From Candidatus Brocadiaceae bacterium (GTDB lineage Bacteria; Planctomycetota; MHYJ01; JACQXL01; CAKKQI01): a stretch of 6,106 bases of DNA. Under the pieces are notes generated by a model, which was not told the DNA's origin, did not search any database, and worked only from the letters and a program-made list of their open reading frames with translations. The DNA lies in contig CAKKQI010000028.1 of NCBI GenBank assembly GCA_919901895.1, positions 1 to 6,106 on the forward strand, given 5' to 3'. Made by a program: the position numbers and the translations under genes. Numbering within the stretch: the first letter of the stretch is position 1; every line of letters begins with the position of its first letter. This document shows positions 1 through 6,106 of the stretch, one piece after another.

Positions 1-2889
1 TGATATTTTATTTTTCAATTCGCTGATTGATTGCACCAGGTCGTTCAGAGTTGTTTCAAAATGAGAAATCTGGTTATTTAACTGGGTAATGGTTATTTCC
101 AGGTGTTCTTTTAGCGACCGGGCCTGAGCTTGCTTGACTTTTAGTTCGGTTATCTGTTGGTCAAGCGCCTTGTTTTCTTCAGCATACCGGCTGATTTTCC
201 GGTTTAACTGTTCAATTTCGTCGTTAATCTGGTCCTGGACGGTTTCTATTTCCTGGAGCATCAGGCTGATGGAAGAGTTTCTTTCTCCTAACGCATTAAT
301 TTGTCCGGTTATCTCGTTTAACTCTAGTTGAATTATTTCTTTTTCTTTAATCAGAATATTTATCTTTTGCTGGATTTCTTCTTTCTGTCTTTGTTTTTCC
401 AATTCAAGAGATTTATGGTCGTAAATTTGATATCTTAATGACTGGGTTATATTTTCTAGCTCGGCCGCTTCCCTGGTTTTTTGACCCTGATGAGTTTCCC
501 GGCCGGTTAAAGCATTCTGGAGAGATATTAATTCTTCGGAAATTCTTTTCAGTTCTGATTTGCGGAAAATCAGGTTTACGCCCGGTTCGCCCCGATGAAA
601 ATCGGGACTCCGCTCCGCTTCGCCGCTCCCGATTTTATCGGGAGAAGTGCCGGTGGAAATAACGCCGCGGGCTGAAATAACTTCGCCGGTTAAAGCCACA
701 ATCGGCTGGAATACTCCCCTGACCTGGCTGAGCATCATCTGGCGGGCCATATCAAGGTTCTCGGCAATCAAATAGGGCGAGAGTAAAAATTTAATCAACG
801 GTTGCAAGTGCGGTTCGCTGGACGCGGTCCCTTCGGGTTCTGTTTTCACCAGCCGGTCCAGCCGCTTCAATAATATCGGAGAGACATCCGTGGTTTTATT
901 TATTTCCTGGTTAGAACCGTCGGATGAATCCGGATCGCCCTGGTGGAGAATTGTTTCTAATGAAATAGTCGTTACCCGGCCGTAGGAATTATTTTTAACA
1001 AATTCCAGAACACGTAAACTGTCCGATAATGTCTGGGTAATAATTGCCTGGCTTAAGTCTTTCAGGACCGATTCCACCGCGCCGATATAAGCCGGTTCCA
1101 CGTCAATTAAATCGGCCAGGATGCCGTAAACTTTTCCAAATTGATGAGGGTTAGTTTTTAATTGGTCCAAAACCGCTTTCACGCCGCCGGCCAGTCCTGC
1201 CTGATGATTTTCCAGGTCTTCCAGGATTTCTTTCCGGGAGATTTTTTTATGGATTTCCTCTTTATGACGGGAAATTTCTTCGGTAAAGGCGGTTAATTCG
1301 GTTTTTAAAGACTTGAACGTATCCTCCTGCCGGTGTAATTCCGTTTTTAACGACGCATTTTTTTCGGTAATCGCCTGGTTCTCCTGTTCCACCCGGAGCG
1401 CCTGTTCTTTTGAGGCGAGCATTTCCGAGGTGATTTCTACAATTCTTATTTCTGTTTTATCCCGGCGAGCCGATAAATTTTTTAATTCAACCTGCAGGCT
1501 GGTTTGTTCATTCTGGTATTGTGATTTTTTGTGAGCGGTATTAAGAACCGCATTTCTTTTGCTTTCCAGTTCCTGATTGAGTGTTTCTAATTCCTGAGAT
1601 ACTTCTTTAAAAGTTGTATTTTTTTCTTCAAGTGTTTGGGTCAGGGTGCTGATATCGTTTTTAGCGGTTTCCAGCGTTTGCATTGTTTCGCAGAGTTGCC
1701 GGCGTGTTTCAATGGCTTTTTGGGTAGTCAGGCCTAAATTTTGTTTTAACCGGGTAATTTCTTCTTGATATTCATTTCGCCTCTGGCGGCTATTTTCTAT
1801 TTCCTGTCCGGTAGCCGCGGCTTCGGCATTAACGGTTAACAGGTTATCCTGATAACGCTTGAGATTGTTATCAAAAGATAATAACTCCTGGTCAATCCCG
1901 GTAATTGATTCTTCCAGGGCAGTTAATTTTTCCGTTAAAACCTGTTCCCGGGCTTTAAATTCAGCCAGTTTAACGGTTAAATCGTCGCTCTGAGAGATTA
2001 ATTCTTGGTAATGATGCAGGGCCAGGCGAGTCTTTTTTTCTTTTAATTCGTTGAGCCACTGCCGGTATTTGGCCGCTTTAGTCGCCTGGATTTTAATTGA
2101 CCTGATGCCCCGCTTTACTTCGCTGATAATGTCATTTAATCTTAATAAATCCTGGGTTACCCGCTCCAGTTTTGACTCGGTTTCCCGTTTTTTGGCTTTA
2201 TATTTGCTGATACCGGCTGCTTCTTCAAAAAGACCGCGCCGTTCTTTGGAGTTTGATAACAGGATAAAATCAATTTTGCCCTGCTCTACGATGGAATACG
2301 ATTCCATCCCCACGCCGGTATCCATAAATAATTCCCGGATATCTTTCAAGCGAACGATCTGGTTATTAATCAAATATTCGCTTTCGCCGGAACGGTAAAG
2401 CCGTCGGGTAACCGTCACTTCGTCGTAATCAATCGGCAGGCGCCGGGATGCCGGCAGCGAAGAAGATAATTTTTCATCTTGTCCCCCGATGTTATATTGG
2501 GGAGTTTGTTCTGATTCTATTGAAGTCTGAGTGGCATTATTTATTTCCGAAGCAGTTTCCTCTTTCGTCTCGCCAATAGCGGGACAAGGCAGGACAATTG
2601 GTTCGGAATAATGATTGTTCTCATCGTTAAGATTAGAAAAAGTAAGTGAAACTTCGGCGTAACTGGCAGAAGGAGTCCCGTTTGAACCGTTGAAAATAAC
2701 ATCCAGCATTTCTTCGCCGCGCAGTGATTTGGCGCTCCGGTCGCCCAGGGCCCATTTGAAGGCGTCAACGACGTTACTTTTGCCGCAGCCATTCGGGCCG
2801 ATTAAACCGGTAATACCATCGTGAAAACAAAACTCTGTTCGTTTGGCAAACGATTTGAATCCTTCAATTTCCAGTTTAACTAATTTCAT
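1..2889 (-). CDS. smc: Chromosome segregation protein SMC (partial, C-terminal end beyond window)
   Basis: SMC is the ATPase of the bacterial condensin complex with ScpA and ScpB; it organises and helps segregate the chromosome. The frame is open for 963 codons from ATG 2889 to the window edge. Residues 1-230 are the N-terminal ATPase head: EGFKSFA near the start, Walker A GPNGCGKSN at 31-39, then VTRRLYRSGESEYLIN, LFMDTGVG and FEEAAGISKYK. A long coiled coil follows (about 230-560), then the hinge (about 565-775, beginning GLAGGVKAV), then the returning coiled coil to 963. The family is usually about 1,150-1,200 residues, so the ABC signature and Walker B half is missing only because the window ends. 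Two inserts stand out: about 60 residues in the head (88-148) and about 20 residues at the hinge end (748-770) that coincide with a palindromic repeat. No good Shine-Dalgarno precedes the start, but EIEGFKSF just after it fits the family. Confidence 0.97.
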   Translation of the reverse strand, partial: MKLVKLEIEGFKSFAKRTEFCFHDGITGLIGPNGCGKSNVVDAFKWALGDRSAKSLRGEEMLDVIFNGSNGTPSASYAEVSLTFSNLNDENNHYSEPIVLPCPAIGETKEETASEINNATQTSIESEQTPQYNIGGQDEKLSSSLPASRRLPIDYDEVTVTRRLYRSGESEYLINNQIVRLKDIRELFMDTGVGMESYSIVEQGKIDFILLSNSKERRGLFEEAAGISKYKAKKRETESKLERVTQDLLRLNDIISEVKRGIRSIKIQATKAAKYRQWLNELKEKKTRLALHHYQELISQSDDLTVKLAEFKAREQVLTEKLTALEESITGIDQELLSFDNNLKRYQDNLLTVNAEAAATGQEIENSRQRRNEYQEEITRLKQNLGLTTQKAIETRRQLCETMQTLETAKNDISTLTQTLEEKNTTFKEVSQELETLNQELESKRNAVLNTAHKKSQYQNEQTSLQVELKNLSARRDKTEIRIVEITSEMLASKEQALRVEQENQAITEKNASLKTELHRQEDTFKSLKTELTAFTEEISRHKEEIHKKISRKEILEDLENHQAGLAGGVKAVLDQLKTNPHQFGKVYGILADLIDVEPAYIGAVESVLKDLSQAIITQTLSDSLRVLEFVKNNSYGRVTTISLETILHQGDPDSSDGSNQEINKTTDVSPILLKRLDRLVKTEPEGTASSEPHLQPLIKFLLSPYLIAENLDMARQMMLSQVRGVFQPIVALTGEVISARGVISTGTSPDKIGSGEAERSPDFHRGEPGVNLIFRKSELKRISEELISLQNALTGRETHQGQKTREAAELENITQSLRYQIYDHKSLELEKQRQKEEIQQKINILIKEKEIIQLELNEITGQINALGERNSSISLMLQEIETVQDQINDEIEQLNRKISRYAEENKALDQQITELKVKQAQARSLKEHLEITITQLNNQISHFETTLNDLVQSISELKNKIS
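591..643. repeat. Composite palindromic repeat inside smc
   Basis: Two 17-bp units, 591-607 (CCCGATGAAAATCGGGA) and 627-643 (TCCCGATTTTATCGGGA), are each internally palindromic. They are also near-perfect inverted copies of each other, separated by a 19-bp GC-rich spacer of CCGCT/TCGCC character. The 53-bp element can form either two small hairpins or one long stem. It is read through in frame as part of SMC, giving SPDKIGS from one unit and SPDFHRG from the other. The same unit occurs at 3735-3751 and 5898-5914. Confidence 0.85.
2446..2628 (-). other. Extra segment of about 60 residues inside the SMC ATPase head
   Basis: In SMC proteins the strand ending EVSLTF is normally followed within about ten residues by LPIDYDEVTVTRR. 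Here residues 88-148 intervene. They are polar and low in hydrophobics (many E, T, S, N and Q), which suggests a disordered surface loop. The frame stays open and both flanks match the family. The DNA of the segment contains a weak inverted repeat, TCCCC to GGGGA, around 2483-2504, reminiscent of the other palindromes in the window. Segment limits are approximate, judged from the remembered family pattern rather than an alignment. Confidence 0.7.
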
Positions 2890-3043
2890 ATTGAGCTATT
2901 CCACGCTAAAGCGTGGCACCCATGTAACTTAACTCTTTTCGCCTTAGGCGGACTTGAGTAATCAGATAAAATTACGGTGAAAATGATACTAAATATATCG
3001 GTATTTTTCATCTATTTCTTGCATAAAAATTCAGAAAATAAAT
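2890..3043. other. Intergenic gap upstream of smc
   Basis: 154 bp between the end of the frameshifted PspC gene and smc. It holds two palindromes (2901-2916 and 2940-2950) and AT-rich DNA. I see no consensus promoter, RNA gene or credible ORF. Confidence 0.6.
2901..2916. repeat. Perfect inverted repeat just upstream of smc
   Basis: CCACGCT-AA-AGCGTGG has 7-bp arms and ends 11 bp before the smc start codon. In the mRNA its 3' arm would contain the only GG near the start, so the hairpin could cover the ribosome binding region. It may equally be a member of a dispersed palindrome family; there is no second copy in this window. A shorter palindrome, CGCCT-T-AGGCG, lies at 2940-2950. Confidence 0.6.
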
Positions 3044-3594
3044 TTATTCCGAAGGGACAATCATGGCAATTATAAAGTAAGCAATCAGACCCAGAATTAC
3101 CCCGCTGAGTAAAATTATTACAACGGTCCCAACCCGACTAAGGTTGGGTCAAGATTGGCATAGTTGGCAAATCCGCTGCAAATACCTAAAATCATCCGTT
3201 CTGTACGGGAACGGGTTAATTTTTTTTGCAAAAAGAACGTGCTGCCGGCTTGTCCGGTCAAATAAGTGCCGCAGTGCTTGCATTTTAAAGCCGCGGCCTT
3301 AATTTCTTCCGCACAGAACGGGCATTTCTTCAAAAGTACTTCACGGTCTAAAGCCTCTAAAAGCCGTTCTCCTTCTTCAGATGAAACTTTCCCTTCTTGA
3401 ACCATTCCTAAAATTCTGTTTTTTTCAGACGGATAATCTACGAAAGGGGCCGGATTGGCTTGAGTCTTTTGAGGAGCCGGTGCTCCTTTCGGACGGTTTT
3501 TAATCGAAAGGACAACAATGATAATACCCCCGATGAAAATCAATATTGGGAGAAAGGCAAGTAATAATTTTGTTGTTGACATGGACATCTCCAT
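3044..3594 (-). pseudogene. PspC-domain membrane protein with SHOCT-like segment and zinc ribbon, frameshifted near its C-terminus
   Basis: The unbroken frame runs 158 codons, 3594 to the stop at 3118. Domains in order: membrane segment (9-30), Pro/Ala linker, SHOCT-like segment (58-82, ILGMVQEGKVSSEEGERLL), zinc ribbon with C91, C94, C105 and C108, then a PspC domain from about 125 (RMILGICSGFANYANLDPTLV). After V153 the frame departs from the family and stops within five codons. The -1 frame from that point reads RVGTVVIILLSGVILGLIAY and ends at 3044 with VPSE, exactly the missing PspC membrane segment. It matches the neighbouring paralogue (LIRVIYVLATLFSGILPLLI). One base, probably a C in the Arg codon at about 3135/3136, is missing. 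No slippery heptamer is visible, so true mutation or assembly error is likelier than programmed shifting. AGGAGG at 3603-3608, 8 bp from ATG 3594, fixes the start. Confidence 0.85.
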
Positions 3595-3602
3595 TGTCTA
3601 AT

Positions 3603-3608
3603 CCTCCT
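3603..3608 (-). promoter_or_regulatory. Perfect Shine-Dalgarno for the frameshifted PspC gene
   Basis: AGGAGG lies 8 nt before ATG 3594, within a longer AGAAAGAGGAGG purine run. It supports 3594 over the nearby in-frame ATG codons at 3588 and 3582. Confidence 0.8.
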
Positions 3609-3685
3609 CTTTCTAAAAGTTTTTAGTTTAGTAATAGACAACTATTTTTGTAATTATTTAGCCGTCTGAAACCCTTTCTGGTAAC

Positions 3686-3950
3686 GTCCCGCCATGGCGG
3701 AACATTGTAAATAAGGGTAGGTTTAAGCCCTTGCCCCGATAATAATCGGGACTTGCTTGAACCGTTATCAGCCTCGCTTCAGGCGGGGACTGATTTCCGC
3801 CGGAGGACGGATCAGCCTCTGGCTGAAGTCCTACGGCTAAGACGAAAGCAAGGACTTGTGTCTATCCCATCCCGCCAAGGGGCGGGATTCGGTTTACCCC
3901 GCCGGTCCGCCCCGCTTCGCTTGGCGAGACCGGGGAGGCGGTGGCTAAAT
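3686..3950. repeat. Palindrome-dense GC-rich intergenic island
   Basis: The 362-bp gap between the two PspC genes has no credible gene but packs many inverted repeats into a GC-rich patch set in AT-rich DNA. They are: CCGCCATGGCGG (3689-3700, perfect); CCCGAT-AATA-ATCGGG (3735-3750); TCAGCC-TCT-GGCTGA (3812-3826); AAGTCCT and AGGACTT arms (3826-3832 and 3851-3857); ATCCCGCC-AAGG-GGCGGGAT (3869-3888); and an imperfect GGTC to GACC structure around 3903-3932. The pattern suggests several REP- or MITE-like elements accumulated together. Some may also act as 3' hairpins for the upstream PspC transcript, although none has a T-tract in the right place. The flanks (3609-3685) are plain AT-rich DNA. 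Confidence 0.75.
3735..3751. repeat. Copy of the 17-bp TCCCGAT/ATCGGGA palindrome
   Basis: CCCGATAATAATCGGGA is the intergenic member of the repeat family also found inside smc (591-607 and 627-643) and inside the radical SAM gene (5898-5914). The arms are identical and only the 3-4 bp centre varies. Confidence 0.85.
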
Positions 3951-3956
3951 AATCAC

Positions 3957-4241
3957 CTATTTTTTAGGGGTAATTAATCCGATAATAATATAAGCAATCA
4001 GTAAAGGCAAAATACCGGAAAACAGTGTGGCGAGTACATAGATTACGCGTATCAAAAAGTAGTCCATCCCAAAATATTCAGCCAGGCCGCCGCAGACACC
4101 CATAATCATTGAATTCTGACTGGAACGATAAAGCCGTTTTCCGGCCTGGATACCCGGCCCTTGGCCTAACATTGAACCACAGTGTTTACACTTGATGGCC
4201 TCTTCCTGAACCTCCTCCGCACAATAAGGGCATTGTTTCAT
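3957..4241 (-). CDS. Zinc-ribbon PspC-domain membrane protein
   Basis: A 94-residue protein. An N-terminal zinc ribbon (C4, C7, C18 and C21 in CPYC and CKHC) is joined by a short Gly-rich linker to a PspC domain. The domain begins KRLYRSSQNSMIMGVCGGLAEYFGMD and has a hydrophobic membrane segment at about 62-90 ending in TPKK. PspC domains occur in inner-membrane proteins linked to envelope stress, so this is probably a small membrane protein with a cytoplasmic metal-binding head. The specific role is unknown. ATG 4241 is preferred over the in-frame ATG 4250, because AGAGG at 4251-4255 lies 9 nt before 4241 but abuts 4250. It is the last gene of the DUF2089 cassette and a paralogue of the broken gene at 3044-3594. 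Confidence 0.92.
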   Translation of the reverse strand: MKQCPYCAEEVQEEAIKCKHCGSMLGQGPGIQAGKRLYRSSQNSMIMGVCGGLAEYFGMDYFLIRVIYVLATLFSGILPLLIAYIIIGLITPKK

Positions 4242-4246
4242 AAAAA

Positions 4247-4336
4247 TCATCCTCTATTTCTTTTAAACAGGAACATAAATTTAGGTATAGGAATTTCAAT
4301 CGGGGTAGGCGGACCTAATTTATTATTACTTATCAT
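4247..4336 (-). CDS. Possible 29-residue peptide with GPPTP motif (doubtful)
   Basis: A short ORF fills the gap between the 46-residue gene and the PspC gene. Its ATG overlaps the end of the former and its stop lies 5 bp before the latter's start. The peptide begins MISNNKLGPPTP and ends in hydrophobic then basic residues (FMFLFKRNRG). The segment GPPxP followed by an aromatic stretch and basic residues resembles the region after the membrane segment of the protein at 4433-4681 (FGPPDP, then CFYPRG). That could reflect an old duplication, or chance. The ribosome site is a weak GGAAAAAGA run. The PspC Shine-Dalgarno lies inside it, so translation may serve coupling. I do not recognise a family. 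Confidence 0.3.
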   Translation of the reverse strand: MISNNKLGPPTPIEIPIPKFMFLFKRNRG

Positions 4337-4466
4337 TTTTCTTTTTCCGTTTTTGTTTTCCTTTGGAATCAGCTTTAGCAATCACCTTCAGGAGCCGTTT
4401 CCCTTGTTCCGGGGTTATTTTTTTTGATTTGATTAAACGTTTGATAATATCTTTTTCGGTATCCAT
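4326..4466 (-). CDS. 46-residue basic protein, SHOCT-like helical hairpin
   Basis: A short protein beginning MDTEKDIIKRLIKSKKITPE and ending in a strongly basic tail (KGKQKRKKKNDK). Residues 4-30 match the SHOCT-like pattern (two short helices split by KxIT/S-x-E) also seen at the C-terminus of the DUF2089 protein and in the middle of the PspC protein at 3044-3594. SHOCT-type segments are found at protein termini and are thought to mediate interactions. The basic tail could bind nucleic acid or acidic lipid, which is inference. The start is secure: AGGAAGG at 4475-4481 sits 8 nt before ATG 4466. It overlaps the preceding ORF by 34 bp in another frame, suggesting translational coupling. It is short enough to be missed by gene callers. 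Confidence 0.75.
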   Translation of the reverse strand: MDTEKDIIKRLIKSKKITPEQGKRLLKVIAKADSKGKQKRKKKNDK

Positions 4467-4681
4467 ATGATTTTCCTTCCTGTTTTGCTCTTAGAGCCGA
4501 TCCTAAAACCTCGAGGGTAGAAACACATGTTTCTATTCATTATTTTCGGGTCGGGAGGCCCGAAATTACCTGATTTTAAAAGTAAAAGAAATAAATCTCC
4601 GAAAATAAAAATAAATATCATTAACCATCCGATTAAACCAATTGATATGAACATATTCGAAATACTCATTGGTTCCGGCAT
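4433..4681 (-). CDS. Small single-pass membrane protein, unknown function
   Basis: 82 residues. Residues 10-36 form one strongly hydrophobic membrane segment (FISIGLIGWLMIFIFIFGDL and onward). A GNFGPPDP motif and a basic C-terminal half with many K, R and I follow. AAGGAG at 4692-4697, 10 nt before ATG 4681, is a good ribosome site, and the gene begins 24 bp after the DUF2089 stop, so it belongs to that operon. I recognise no family. The last 11 codons overlap the next gene, and the C-terminal third reads less like conserved protein than the first half. The natural product may be shorter, or a frameshift may have extended the reading frame. Confidence 0.65.
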   Translation of the reverse strand: MPEPMSISNMFISIGLIGWLMIFIFIFGDLFLLLLKSGNFGPPDPKIMNRNMCFYPRGFRIGSKSKTGRKIIWIPKKILSNV

Positions 4682-4705
4682 AATAAATTATCTCCTTCTA
4701 AATAT

Positions 4706-5065
4706 TTATAATTCCCTGAATAATTTTATCGCCTCGTCCACGCTGATTTTACCTTCTTCAATGCCGTCTAATATCCGTTTCCGGTATTCCTTATCGCCGG
4801 TGGTTTCCTGTTTAAGTTTACTAATTACTTCATCCAGACGGTTGCGAATTGTGGGATAAGAAATATTAAGTTTCTGGGCTACGGCTTTAAGACTGCCGCT
4901 GGATTTGACAAACAGTTCAATAAATTCACGGTCCTCGGGCGGCAGCCGGGCCAGGCGGGGGATGGGAATCTCCCCTTCCACGGCAATCTTGCATGCCTTA
5001 CAGCGAATCCGCTCAATGTGCATTGCCCCACCGCAATAAGGACAGCTACGAGCCAGTTTTTCCAT
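4706..5065 (-). CDS. DUF2089-family zinc-ribbon/helix-turn-helix regulator
   Basis: 119 residues. A zinc ribbon with C8, C11, C22 and C25 (CPYCGGAMHIERIRCKAC) leads into a helix-turn-helix at about 58-84. There, SLKAVAQKLNISYPTIRNRL is the typical DUF2089 recognition signature. A SHOCT-like segment closes the protein at about 96-118 (EEGKISVDEAIKLF). It is predicted to be a cytoplasmic DNA-binding regulator; target and signal are unknown. It is first in a run of short genes that ends with a PspC membrane protein, and a consensus promoter lies just upstream, so autoregulation of the cassette is plausible but unproven. The start must be 5065, since the next Met lies inside the zinc ribbon. No Shine-Dalgarno is present and the expected leader is only about a dozen bases. 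Confidence 0.93.
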   Translation of the reverse strand: MEKLARSCPYCGGAMHIERIRCKACKIAVEGEIPIPRLARLPPEDREFIELFVKSSGSLKAVAQKLNISYPTIRNRLDEVISKLKQETTGDKEYRKRILDGIEEGKISVDEAIKLFREL

Positions 5066-5083
5066 AATAAAATTTTTAATAGA

Positions 5084-5111
5084 ATTATATTAGATAATTT
5101 AATTTTGTCAA
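5084..5111 (-). promoter_or_regulatory. Consensus sigma70 promoter for the DUF2089 cassette
   Basis: Reading the minus strand, TTGACA (5106-5111) and TATAAT (5084-5089) are both perfect and separated by 16 bp. A/T tracts upstream resemble an UP element. Transcription would begin near 5077, leaving a leader of about 12 nt before ATG 5065. An inverted repeat AATTAT-CTAAT-ATAATT (5083-5099) overlaps the -10 box and could be an operator, although AT-rich DNA makes such repeats easily by chance. Confidence 0.85.
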
Positions 5112-5161
5112 GAAAAAAATCAATTTTATTAAAGAATTTTTTAAAAAAAGTTAATTTTATT
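5112..5161 (-). repeat. Two 19-bp AT-rich direct repeats abutting the -35 box
   Basis: On the minus strand AATAAAATTAACTTTTTTT (5143-5161) and AATAAAATTGATTTTTTTC (5112-5130) match at 16 of 19 positions and start 31 bp apart, about three helical turns. The nearer copy ends at the -35 box. They could be tandem binding sites for a regulator or simply a bipartite UP element. Confidence 0.5.
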
Positions 5162-5229
5162 GAATCTGTTGAAATCCGATAAGAAACGATTTTTTTGTCG
5201 CGATTTGTCAGTTGTTTTTATCCGGATGG

Positions 5230-5249
5230 ATTCCTGTTTTCACAGGAAT
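5230..5249. repeat. Hairpin repeat ATTCCTGT-TTTC-ACAGGAAT
   Basis: Perfect 8-bp arms with a 4-nt loop, flanked by TGG and GACA. The ATTCC/GGAAT palindrome flanked this way resembles short dispersed hairpin repeats seen in many bacterial genomes. It lies 50 bp after the DUF192 stop and could protect or end that transcript, but no T-tract follows it in the minus direction. Confidence 0.65.
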
Positions 5250-5298
5250 GACAGACGAGGGTTTCGGCAAAACCATTTGATATGATTTCACGAGAGTT

Positions 5299-5775
5299 TT
5301 ACTCGGCGATGATATTTTTGACATAAGCGGGGAATGCAACCCGGTCGCCGGTTTTAACACGATGTTGCGTAAACCAGCCCCGGTTTACTTCAAGGGCATA
5401 TTTGGTTTTATCCCTGGAAACAACCGAAGTGGTATCAAACGGTTTCAGCGGGCTAATCTGGGTAATCGTGCCGTCCGCCTTGATAAAAGCAATGTCAAGC
5501 GGGATTTCAGTGTTTTTCATCCAGAATGATAACCCCTGTTCGTCCGGATAGATAAAAAGCAGGCCGGTATCAGGCGGTAAGGCCGGACGATGCATCAGTC
5601 CTTTCCGCCTGGTTTCTTCAGTAAAGGCGAGTTCTAATTTGAGTTCAGAGCGGTTAATCCTGAGAATAAAATCAGGTGATGGCGATGAAGAAGGCGCTGG
5701 TTTGAGCCAAATAATTATGATAATGACGGCAAAAGGAATTAAGGCAAACTTGAAAAGTCTATTTTTTATCTGCAT
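5299..5775 (-). CDS. Membrane-anchored DUF192 protein
   Basis: 158 residues. An N-terminal signal anchor (basic MQIKNRLFKF, then hydrophobic 11-24) is followed by a Pro/Ser linker and a DUF192 domain spanning about 37-148. Family hallmarks are visible: ELAFTEETRRKGLMHR (48-63), a DTGLLFIYP segment (69-77), FWMKNTEIPLDIAFI (84-98), YALEVNRGW (126-134) and the final TGDRV. The domain should face the outside of the membrane. Its biochemical role is not established. The start overlaps the preceding gene's stop by 10 bp (ATGCAGATAA), so translation is probably coupled; no well-placed ribosome site is visible. Length and motifs are complete. Confidence 0.94.
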   Translation of the reverse strand: MQIKNRLFKFALIPFAVIIIIIWLKPAPSSSPSPDFILRINRSELKLELAFTEETRRKGLMHRPALPPDTGLLFIYPDEQGLSFWMKNTEIPLDIAFIKADGTITQISPLKPFDTTSVVSRDKTKYALEVNRGWFTQHRVKTGDRVAFPAYVKNIIAE

Positions 5776-6106
5776 ATAATATTATTTTTCGCTCCGCACT
5801 GGCCGCATTGACCGTCTTCGGTTAATTTTAAAATTTTAATGTTATAACCCAGTCGTTGAATAAGTTTGGCTTGACATTTATGGCAGAAGGTATCGCTTCC
5901 CGATAGAATCGGGACAGGTGTTTCCCGGAGCGAAATGTTTCCCAGATAAACATGGTCCAGATACTGTTTGGCAATTTGATGCGCTTTAAGTAACGTATCA
6001 GACGGGGTGGGTGGATTAGTTAATTTATAAATAGGGTAATAAGCAGAAAAATGCAAGGGCGTATCCCGGCCCAGGTGCTCGGCTACCCATTGAGACAGGT
6101 TTTTAA
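5766..6106 (-). CDS. amrS: AmmeMemoRadiSam-type radical SAM protein, C-terminal part
   Basis: 112 codons and a stop are visible; the gene continues beyond the window, so the catalytic CxxxCxxC region cannot be seen. Recognisable family features are DTPLHFSAYYPIYKLTNPP, then TLLKAHQIAKQ, HVYLGNI, and two CxxC pairs (CHKC and CGQC) near the C-terminus, which probably bind metal. These match the C-terminal part of the radical SAM member of the AmmeMemoRadiSam group, related to pyruvate formate-lyase activating enzymes, whose function is poorly known. Between GNI and SDTFC there are about 8-10 extra residues (LRETPVPILSG), where family members usually have a short Gly-rich loop. This insert coincides with a palindromic repeat at 5898-5914. 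The gene overlaps the DUF192 gene by 10 bp. The symbol rests on family resemblance of the C-terminus alone. Confidence 0.85.
   Translation of the reverse strand, partial: KNLSQWVAEHLGRDTPLHFSAYYPIYKLTNPPTPSDTLLKAHQIAKQYLDHVYLGNISLRETPVPILSGSDTFCHKCQAKLIQRLGYNIKILKLTEDGQCGQCGAKNNIICR
5898..5914. repeat. 17-bp palindrome inside the radical SAM gene
   Basis: TCCCGATAGAATCGGGA has perfect 7-bp arms and is the same repeat unit as at 591-607, 627-643 and 3735-3751. It is translated in frame as part of VPILSG, in a different codon phase from the copies in smc, and adds residues between GNI and SDTF. Confidence 0.85.

Follow-up and report, generated by a model that had tools for sequence, protein, structure and literature searches.

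Hairpin units of about 21 bp with CCCGAT arms, candidate products of very small transposition events, in conserved genes of a Candidatus Brocadiaceae bacterium

The 6,106-nt stretch of DNA analysed here (the window: contig CAKKQI010000028.1 of assembly GCA_919901895.1, from a Candidatus Brocadiaceae bacterium) carries four short hairpins with the arms CCCGAT and ATCGGG, two in an SMC gene, one in a radical-SAM gene and one in an intergenic region. These palindromes are real and represent an in-frame hairpin unit, about 21 bp long, that has been inserted repeatedly. In its clean form the unit is a 15-nt hairpin, composed of the two arms and a 3-nt centre, followed by a 6-nt tail of the form RCNNGY, giving 21 bp in all; copies with the tail (tagged copies) fall into a larger class and a smaller T-class, CCCGATAGAATCGGGACAGGY. 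The hairpin units (21 bp where clean) lie in frame in conserved genes at places that are empty in relatives, and it is rather likely that they spread as very small transposition products, the insertion of which would duplicate 5 bp of target. The features of the window are as follows.

1..2889, minus strand: gene for the chromosome-segregation protein SMC, of which 963 codons lie in the window, with Pfam SMC_N and SMC_hinge domains and two hairpins near the hinge end
586..624, no strand: 33-bp repeat unit in SMC, with TTCGCC direct repeats at 586-591 and 619-624 around the hairpin 591-606 (period 33)
627..643, no strand: exact 17-bp palindrome in SMC, without the RCNNGY tail (exact pattern match)
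3730..3756, no strand: intergenic unit with a 4-nt centre, consisting of CTTGC (3730-3734), hairpin 3735-3750 plus A at 3751, and CTTGC (3752-3756)
5766..6104, minus strand: C-terminal part of the gene for an AmmeMemoRadiSam-system radical SAM enzyme (open frame; a run of N lies beyond it in the contig)
5899..5919, plus strand: 21-bp T-class unit CCCGATAGAATCGGGACAGGT within the radical-SAM gene and antisense to it (tagged 21-mer match)

Hairpins of the window

A preliminary description had placed a 17-bp palindrome at 591-607, 627-643, 3735-3751 and 5898-5914. There is a hairpin at every one of these places, but the 17-bp pattern TCCCGATNNNATCGGGA fits only 627-643 and 5898-5914; the other two, 591-606 and 3735-3750, read CCCGAT-N4-ATCGGG, and the base before the left arm is C, not T. 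The distribution over three loci, two of them in genes, was described correctly (two copies in SMC, one in the radical-SAM gene, 3735-3750 intergenic), as was the difference in codon phase between loci, both SMC copies being in phase 0 and the radical-SAM copy, with the codons CCT GTC CCG ATT CTA TCG GGA, in phase 2. Shuffled versions of the window gave two or more matches in 14 of 200 cases, but up to three mismatches were allowed there, and both real matches are exact. The unit at 5899-5919 is predicted to form a DNA hairpin of -6.3 kcal/mol (z -2.8), while the intergenic unit at 3730-3756 has a net length of 22 bp, which is not a multiple of three.

The radical-SAM gene takes its name from a same-family homologue that matches TIGR04337 with 356 bits (cut-off 220); a Pfam search with the piece in the window gave no match. 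For SMC, the best NCBIfam model is SMC_prok_B, at 522.8 bits and thus under its cut-off of 567.35. No Rfam family matches the window at gathering scores.

Abundance and build of the unit

In the source genome (G000; 2,503,359 bases in 509 contigs), the 17-bp pattern has 18 copies and CCCGATN{1,8}ATCGGG has 228, compared with 0 and 1, respectively, for the control, in which the same pattern was reversed (read backwards). A genome-wide frequency near chance, the outcome named in the preliminary description as speaking against a spreading element, therefore did not occur. The arm pattern was searched in 59 genomes, comprising the source genome, eight relatives from the same order and 50 genomes from outside it. 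Seven of the eight relatives contain 35-163 copies and the eighth (G002) contains 1, whereas the 50 genomes outside the order contain 0-22 copies each, with 0-3 in the controls. Matches to the tagged 21-mer, counted on both strands and with copies that have a tail on both sides counted twice, number 88 in the source genome, 13 in the same-family genome and 1 in each of two other same-order genomes; the remaining 55 genomes have none, and the reversed controls are all 0. The arms are common across the order, but the tagged 21-bp unit scarcely occurs outside the source genome and its family. Viral contigs contain no exact match to the T-class 21-mer.

Individual copies were studied in 100 contigs of the source genome (674,736 letters, 632,885 of them not N), of which 23 are wholly N, leaving 77; some of the 100 were picked for having matches, and densities are thus not from a random sample. 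A set of 40 consecutively numbered contigs holds 18 copies in 235,476 letters, N included. When 60 contigs were surveyed for 6-mers paired round a loop of 3-8 nt, CCCGAT was the commonest, runs of N aside.

The tail was recognized in the 47 copies with a 3-nt centre, 32 of which show RCNNGY as an unpaired hexamer on one side or both, with a background of 1.24% per position; on the right side of hairpins of another family, TCCGCC, it is found in 0 of 50. Altogether 57 tagged copies, some fetched because they were tagged, were divided into the larger class (48 copies) and the T-class (9 copies, including that at 5899-5919 of the window), the latter with the centre AGA in 6 of 9 and the tail ACAGGY. 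In the larger class, the last five bases of the tail are repeated across the hairpin exactly in 19 copies, at four of five positions in 13 and at fewer in 16, the orientation of each copy having been picked to favour the repeat, a choice for which the permutation tests allow. A perfect 5-bp direct repeat is present in 10 of the 47 copies, where permutation gave a mean of 1.36 and a count this high in 0 of 5000 runs, in 11 of 26 further copies from the source genome, chosen for the tail and held out (1.12; 0 of 5000), and in 4 of 10 copies in the same-family genome (0.92; 50 of 5000). Scans of other registers for a direct repeat gave no cell above 2. Likewise, the TCCGCC, CCCGCC, TCCCGC, CCGCC and CCCCG families showed nothing beyond an isolated cell of 2, and the 5-bp repeat is therefore not a general property of hairpins in this genome.

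Among the 48 copies of the larger class there are 20 kinds of tail and 25 centre triplets, and a common tail goes with a common centre in 1 pair, compared with 2.9 expected. The arms are well preserved, with 47 exact 3-nt-centre copies against 9 that have one mismatch away from the closing pair. One locus of the source genome (L249, C317:8463-8504) contains two tagged 21-bp units back to back, with CGAGY present three times, and is a case of nested or serial insertion.

Genes were predicted by a simple codon-usage caller (461 genes, 76% coding). Called genes wholly contain 51 of 98 copies; for 50 of these the gene has 150 codons or more, and 48 are at least 20 codons away from either called end. 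Copies with 3-nt centres are found 34 times in genes and 13 times outside, compared with 17 and 34 for other centres (p = 1.3e-4). The densities per Mb in coding and non-coding DNA are 70.6 vs 85.9 for 3-nt, 22.8 vs 125.5 for 4-nt and 10.4 vs 85.9 for 5-nt centres, so 3-nt centres are tolerated in genes, and 4-5-nt centres much less. The in-gene 3-nt copies occupy codon phases 0, 1 and 2 in 17, 4 and 13 cases, and the direction of the tail relative to the coding strand is even (7 vs 6 and 4 vs 3).

Many of the 4- and 5-nt centres belong to other, longer repeats that share the CCCGAT arms. One such repeat, CCCGATTAGGTCGGG-ACTCCACTGTCGTT, occurs at L035:10519, L044:7502, L051:3446, L141:50 and elsewhere, and its closing pair is T-G on one strand; most variants closed by a T-G pair are members of another, longer repeat. 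The 77 contigs with sequence also abound in TCCGCC..GGCGGA hairpins, 50 of which have a 3-nt centre, and in TCCCGC..GCGGGA hairpins. At L047:1152-1200, TAGCCTAACAGGCTA hairpins form the basis of a short tandem array whose period is 19 bp.

Sites empty in homologues

The preliminary description had also named, as evidence against insertion, orthologues that carry the same residues without the palindrome. This outcome did not occur either: the homologues of both SMC and the radical-SAM protein show gaps. At the radical-SAM site, seven residues are absent in 9 of 11 homologues (in one as 4 + 3) and six in the other two, the comparators including the same-family genome and a paralogue in the source genome itself. 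In SMC, 18 residues spanning both copies are absent in 4 of 6 same-order homologues, while the other two lack 15 and 10. Because TTCGCC repeats at a period of 33, these 18 codons would be explained by 33 + 21 = 54 bp, a split by which the palindrome at 627-643 is inferred to belong to an insert of 21 bp (54 minus 33); the locus L105 contains a longer element resembling the 33-bp unit. Elsewhere in SMC, a degenerate hairpin, CCCCCGATGTTATATTGGGG, is present at 2483-2502, within residues of about 98-147, a stretch skipped by the relatives' matches, and is perhaps an older, decayed insert.

Other conserved genes of the source genome display the same pattern. In PheT, seven residues are absent in 7 of 7 relatives and in two PDB chains, and, among 31 other database homologues listed, seven are absent in 30 and eight in the last; those among the nearest homologues that bear names are labelled Planctomycetes or Planctomycetota. 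In the N-terminal half of a transketolase, 14 residues, equivalent to two units, are absent in 10 of 10 relatives and paralogues. Among the best 119 of 6713 other homologues, the first site has at least 5 gap residues in 118 and four in one, and the second at least 7 in 119 of 119. The DNA here consists of two units with separate 5-bp repeats, CAAGC for one and, round a hairpin with degenerate arms, CAAAC for the other; when either 21-bp unit is removed by script, the frame is kept and the common sequence remains. An AlphaFold model of this half (mean predicted local distance difference test score, pLDDT, 70) places the inserts between a helix (231-243) and a strand (263-268), with the block pLDDT falling to 63 and 54, as would be expected of a tolerated loop.

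Taking all fetched comparators together, the median gap reaches 5 residues or more at 14 of 14 testable in-gene sites, compared with 1.07 expected, where the gap was to lie within six residues of the palindrome, the expectation came from control windows in the same alignments, and some loci overlap. Alignments with PDB sequences contain gaps of 14 and 10 residues in MurC, 15 in TatD, 11 in RNase E/G (first copy), 10 in NAD(P)H-hydrate dehydratase, 8 in 3-dehydroquinate synthase and 5 in HdrA, and TilS has 31 unaligned residues against 4; the receiver of the response regulator gave no alignment. Several of these gaps exceed seven residues, and therefore not every site is one clean 21-bp unit. 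By sequence comparison, the in-gene copies are read as insertions.

Elsewhere in the window, a 21-nt hairpin of other sequence, CCCAACC-CGACTAA-GGTTGGG, lies at 3128-3148, where the frame of the first of two PspC-domain genes ends early. Of the 58 positions of the Pfam domain, the gene matches only 30, the remainder seems to continue in another frame, and the gene looks broken at the hairpin. The two neighbouring zinc-ribbon and PspC genes have similar ends at 3053-3088 and 3966-4001, and a DUF2089 regulator-like gene adjoins them.

Known elements and possible origin

Several known systems invite comparison, among them the Rickettsia palindromic elements (RPE) and the coding palindromes of Wolbachia. 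Like the CCCGAT unit, RPE are palindromes that occur in frame within conserved protein genes as well as in intergenic DNA (PMC2229807), and such in-frame insertion in conserved genes is found here, with DNA polymerase X as an exception. RPE have a stated length of 105-146 bp with long terminal inverted repeats (PMC2229807) or of about 150 bp (PMC10969869). By contrast, the CCCGAT unit has 21 bp, arms of 6 to 8 bp and, in many copies, a direct repeat, and occurs in another lineage; its size lies outside that of RPE.

Tagged repetitive extragenic palindromes (REPs) resemble the unit in being short hairpins with an unpaired tag and a high copy number (here 228 against 1 in the control), some of them in open reading frames (ORFs). 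A REP survey distinguishes GTAG and CGTC super-families, some members of which lie within ORFs, counts RPE-4 and RPE-6 as CGTC type, and reports REPs from Planctomycetes too (PMC3733652). One REP of S. maltophilia is 23 nt long, with a perfect palindrome of 8 bp and a loop of 3 nt (PMC8266576). The CCCGAT unit differs in that its tag is RCNNGY (in the 32 of 47 copies above) rather than GTAG or CGTC, the list having been checked by eye, and is often repeated on the other flank; in addition, no clear RAYT link was found for it at the five Y1 loci examined, and about half of the sampled copies (51/98) lie in genes.

The cyanobacterial small dispersed repeats of Elhai et al. 2008 are said to be mobile repeats of 21-27 nt with hairpins and nested insertions, a size range that includes the 21-nt unit; the features of the CCCGAT unit to be set beside them are in-frame coding insertion and 5-bp repeats. 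Miniature inverted-repeat transposable elements (MITEs), usually a hundred bases or more in size, combine inverted repeats with direct repeats of target sequence and carry no gene themselves. In the CCCGAT unit, however, the two arms make up nearly the whole element, no autonomous partner was found in the 77 contigs with sequence, and the target-type direct repeats, although well above permutation, are perfect in only 10 of the 47 sampled copies. Judged by analogy, the unit would work like the Rickettsia coding palindromes and be built like a tagged REP, but differs from the former in size and from the latter in tag, and is best regarded as a member of neither. It appears new in sequence, size and host, although this is not proven: a literature search on palindromes and Planctomycetes found, apart from unrelated papers, the REP survey and a HuH-endonuclease survey, and the unit's own sequence was not searched for in print.

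The direct repeats, the 21-bp gaps and the independent centres point to a staggered-cut origin for the larger class. A transposase-like event that recognizes little beyond the two arms would cut at CNNGY sites and leave a minimal inverted repeat between two copies of the same 5 bp of target. The 3-nt centre would be drawn afresh at each event, since same-tail copies do not share centres, and selection for the reading frame would then retain the 21-bp events in genes. The unit may be inserted as such or left behind by a larger element. The proposal in the preliminary description of a spreading element that tolerates insertion in ORFs, similar to RPE but of different sequence, is supported by the genome-wide counts, the empty sites and the copy-specific flanking repeats; its unit has been corrected to about 21 bp (hairpin plus tail) from a 17-bp palindrome, and several hairpin families share the arms.

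A number of observations weigh against spread by transposition with target duplication. With the arms intact, 15 of the 47 copies have no tail and 37 have no perfect repeat, and the repeat is found in only 2 of 30 copies with 4-nt and 0 of 18 with 5-nt centres. None of the nine T-class copies exceeds 2 of 5 matches, and the T-class, in which centre and tail hardly vary and the direct repeat is lacking, is not explained by the proposed mechanism. Nine of the 14 testable sites rest on one comparator, the HdrA gap has only five residues, and DNA polymerase X differs from its PDB homologue by only 2 residues, with no clean insertion. Frame keeping among perfect-repeat copies (9 of 9 inside genes, 2 of 4 outside, p = 0.077) is only suggestive. 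Lastly, among arm pairs 9 to 4000 bases apart in the 77 contigs, three have a direct repeat and none is convincing as a parent transposon; no autonomous partner with the same ends was seen in these contigs, and no transposase for the unit was identified in the contigs examined.

The main rival is a REP-like single-strand route, since T-class copies, too, are built as 21-nt units but have no duplication. Here, an HUH enzyme (Y1, RAYT or IS200/IS605-type) would recognize the hairpin and its unpaired RCNNGY tag and insert the 21-nt strand beside a matching target, without target duplication. We regard this route as unlikely, though to be taken seriously. On insertion without target duplication the two classes disagree, flanking repeats being present in the larger class and absent from the T-class. 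A hairpin with an unpaired tag is the REP build (PMC3733652), both classes have 21 nt, and Y1 genes are present in 8 of 10 genomes searched; in G005 (L185), CCCGAT hairpins at 63 and 1008 flank a Y1 gene at 226-591, with GCCTGTAAAGGC hairpins nearer the gene. However, Y1 genes do not track the copies (1 gene and 228 copies in G000, 5 and 1 in G002, 0 and 58 in G008, which is 63% complete), and of five Y1 loci examined only that of G005, the one sign of such a link, has CCCGAT hairpins near it, the Y1 contig of G000 and single loci of G002, G004 and G006 having no CCCGAT hairpin. The hairpins nearest the Y1 gene in G000 and G005 are of other sequences, and the tags, besides being neither GTAG nor CGTC, vary and match the flank copy by copy. 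Just downstream of the only Y1-transposase match of G000 lie two identical hairpins, GGCGACCACAAGGGTCGCC, unlike the CCCGAT arms (L064:15551-15569 and 15622-15640).

Alternatively, the copies could be scars of a larger transposon that had CCCGAT...ATCGGG ends and duplicated 5 bp of target, and whose imprecise excision left end bases and random filler. The seemingly independent centres (the 25 triplets and the single same-tail pair), the target-like tails of 20 kinds and a direct-repeat copy with a 9-nt centre (L114) are compatible with scars, but the search of spaced arm pairs gave no convincing transposon, arms within 120 bases of contig ends are about equally frequent in either orientation (CCCGAT 12, ATCGGG 8 of 154 ends), and the repeated T-class sequence does not fit, making this origin improbable. 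It is very improbable that the hairpins are functional structures or protein-binding sites maintained by selection and not by mobility: the arms are better kept than the flanks and the predicted DNA folding is stable, but the arm spacing varies, the copies are spread through coding regions, homologues show gaps of exactly seven residues, and no compared relative has a copy at the same place. Chance, base composition or an assembly artefact might be suspected in an assembly fragmented into 509 contigs, but is refuted by the reversed-pattern controls (0-1 in G000), the abundance of the same arms in seven other genomes of the order, and homologues lacking exactly these residues.

For the CCCGAT unit as a very small transposition product, a fuller description can be offered tentatively, as one that may well not hold: a protein-coding mobile unit of two 6-bp arms, each event of which would bring CCCGAT and ATCGGG, a new 3-nt centre, a 5-bp duplication and exactly seven codons, repeated in the proteome of one lineage. 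If true, proteins, even such conserved ones as PheT, transketolase and SMC, would acquire short peptides by single steps of seven codons each, and coding palindromes would reach beyond the intracellular alphaproteobacteria in which they were first described. The independent centres pose a question that does not arise for a simple copied element, namely what is copied if only the arms are shared. Since the source genome has paralogues both with and without the insert, for transketolase as for radical SAM, the tolerance of such inserts is directly testable.

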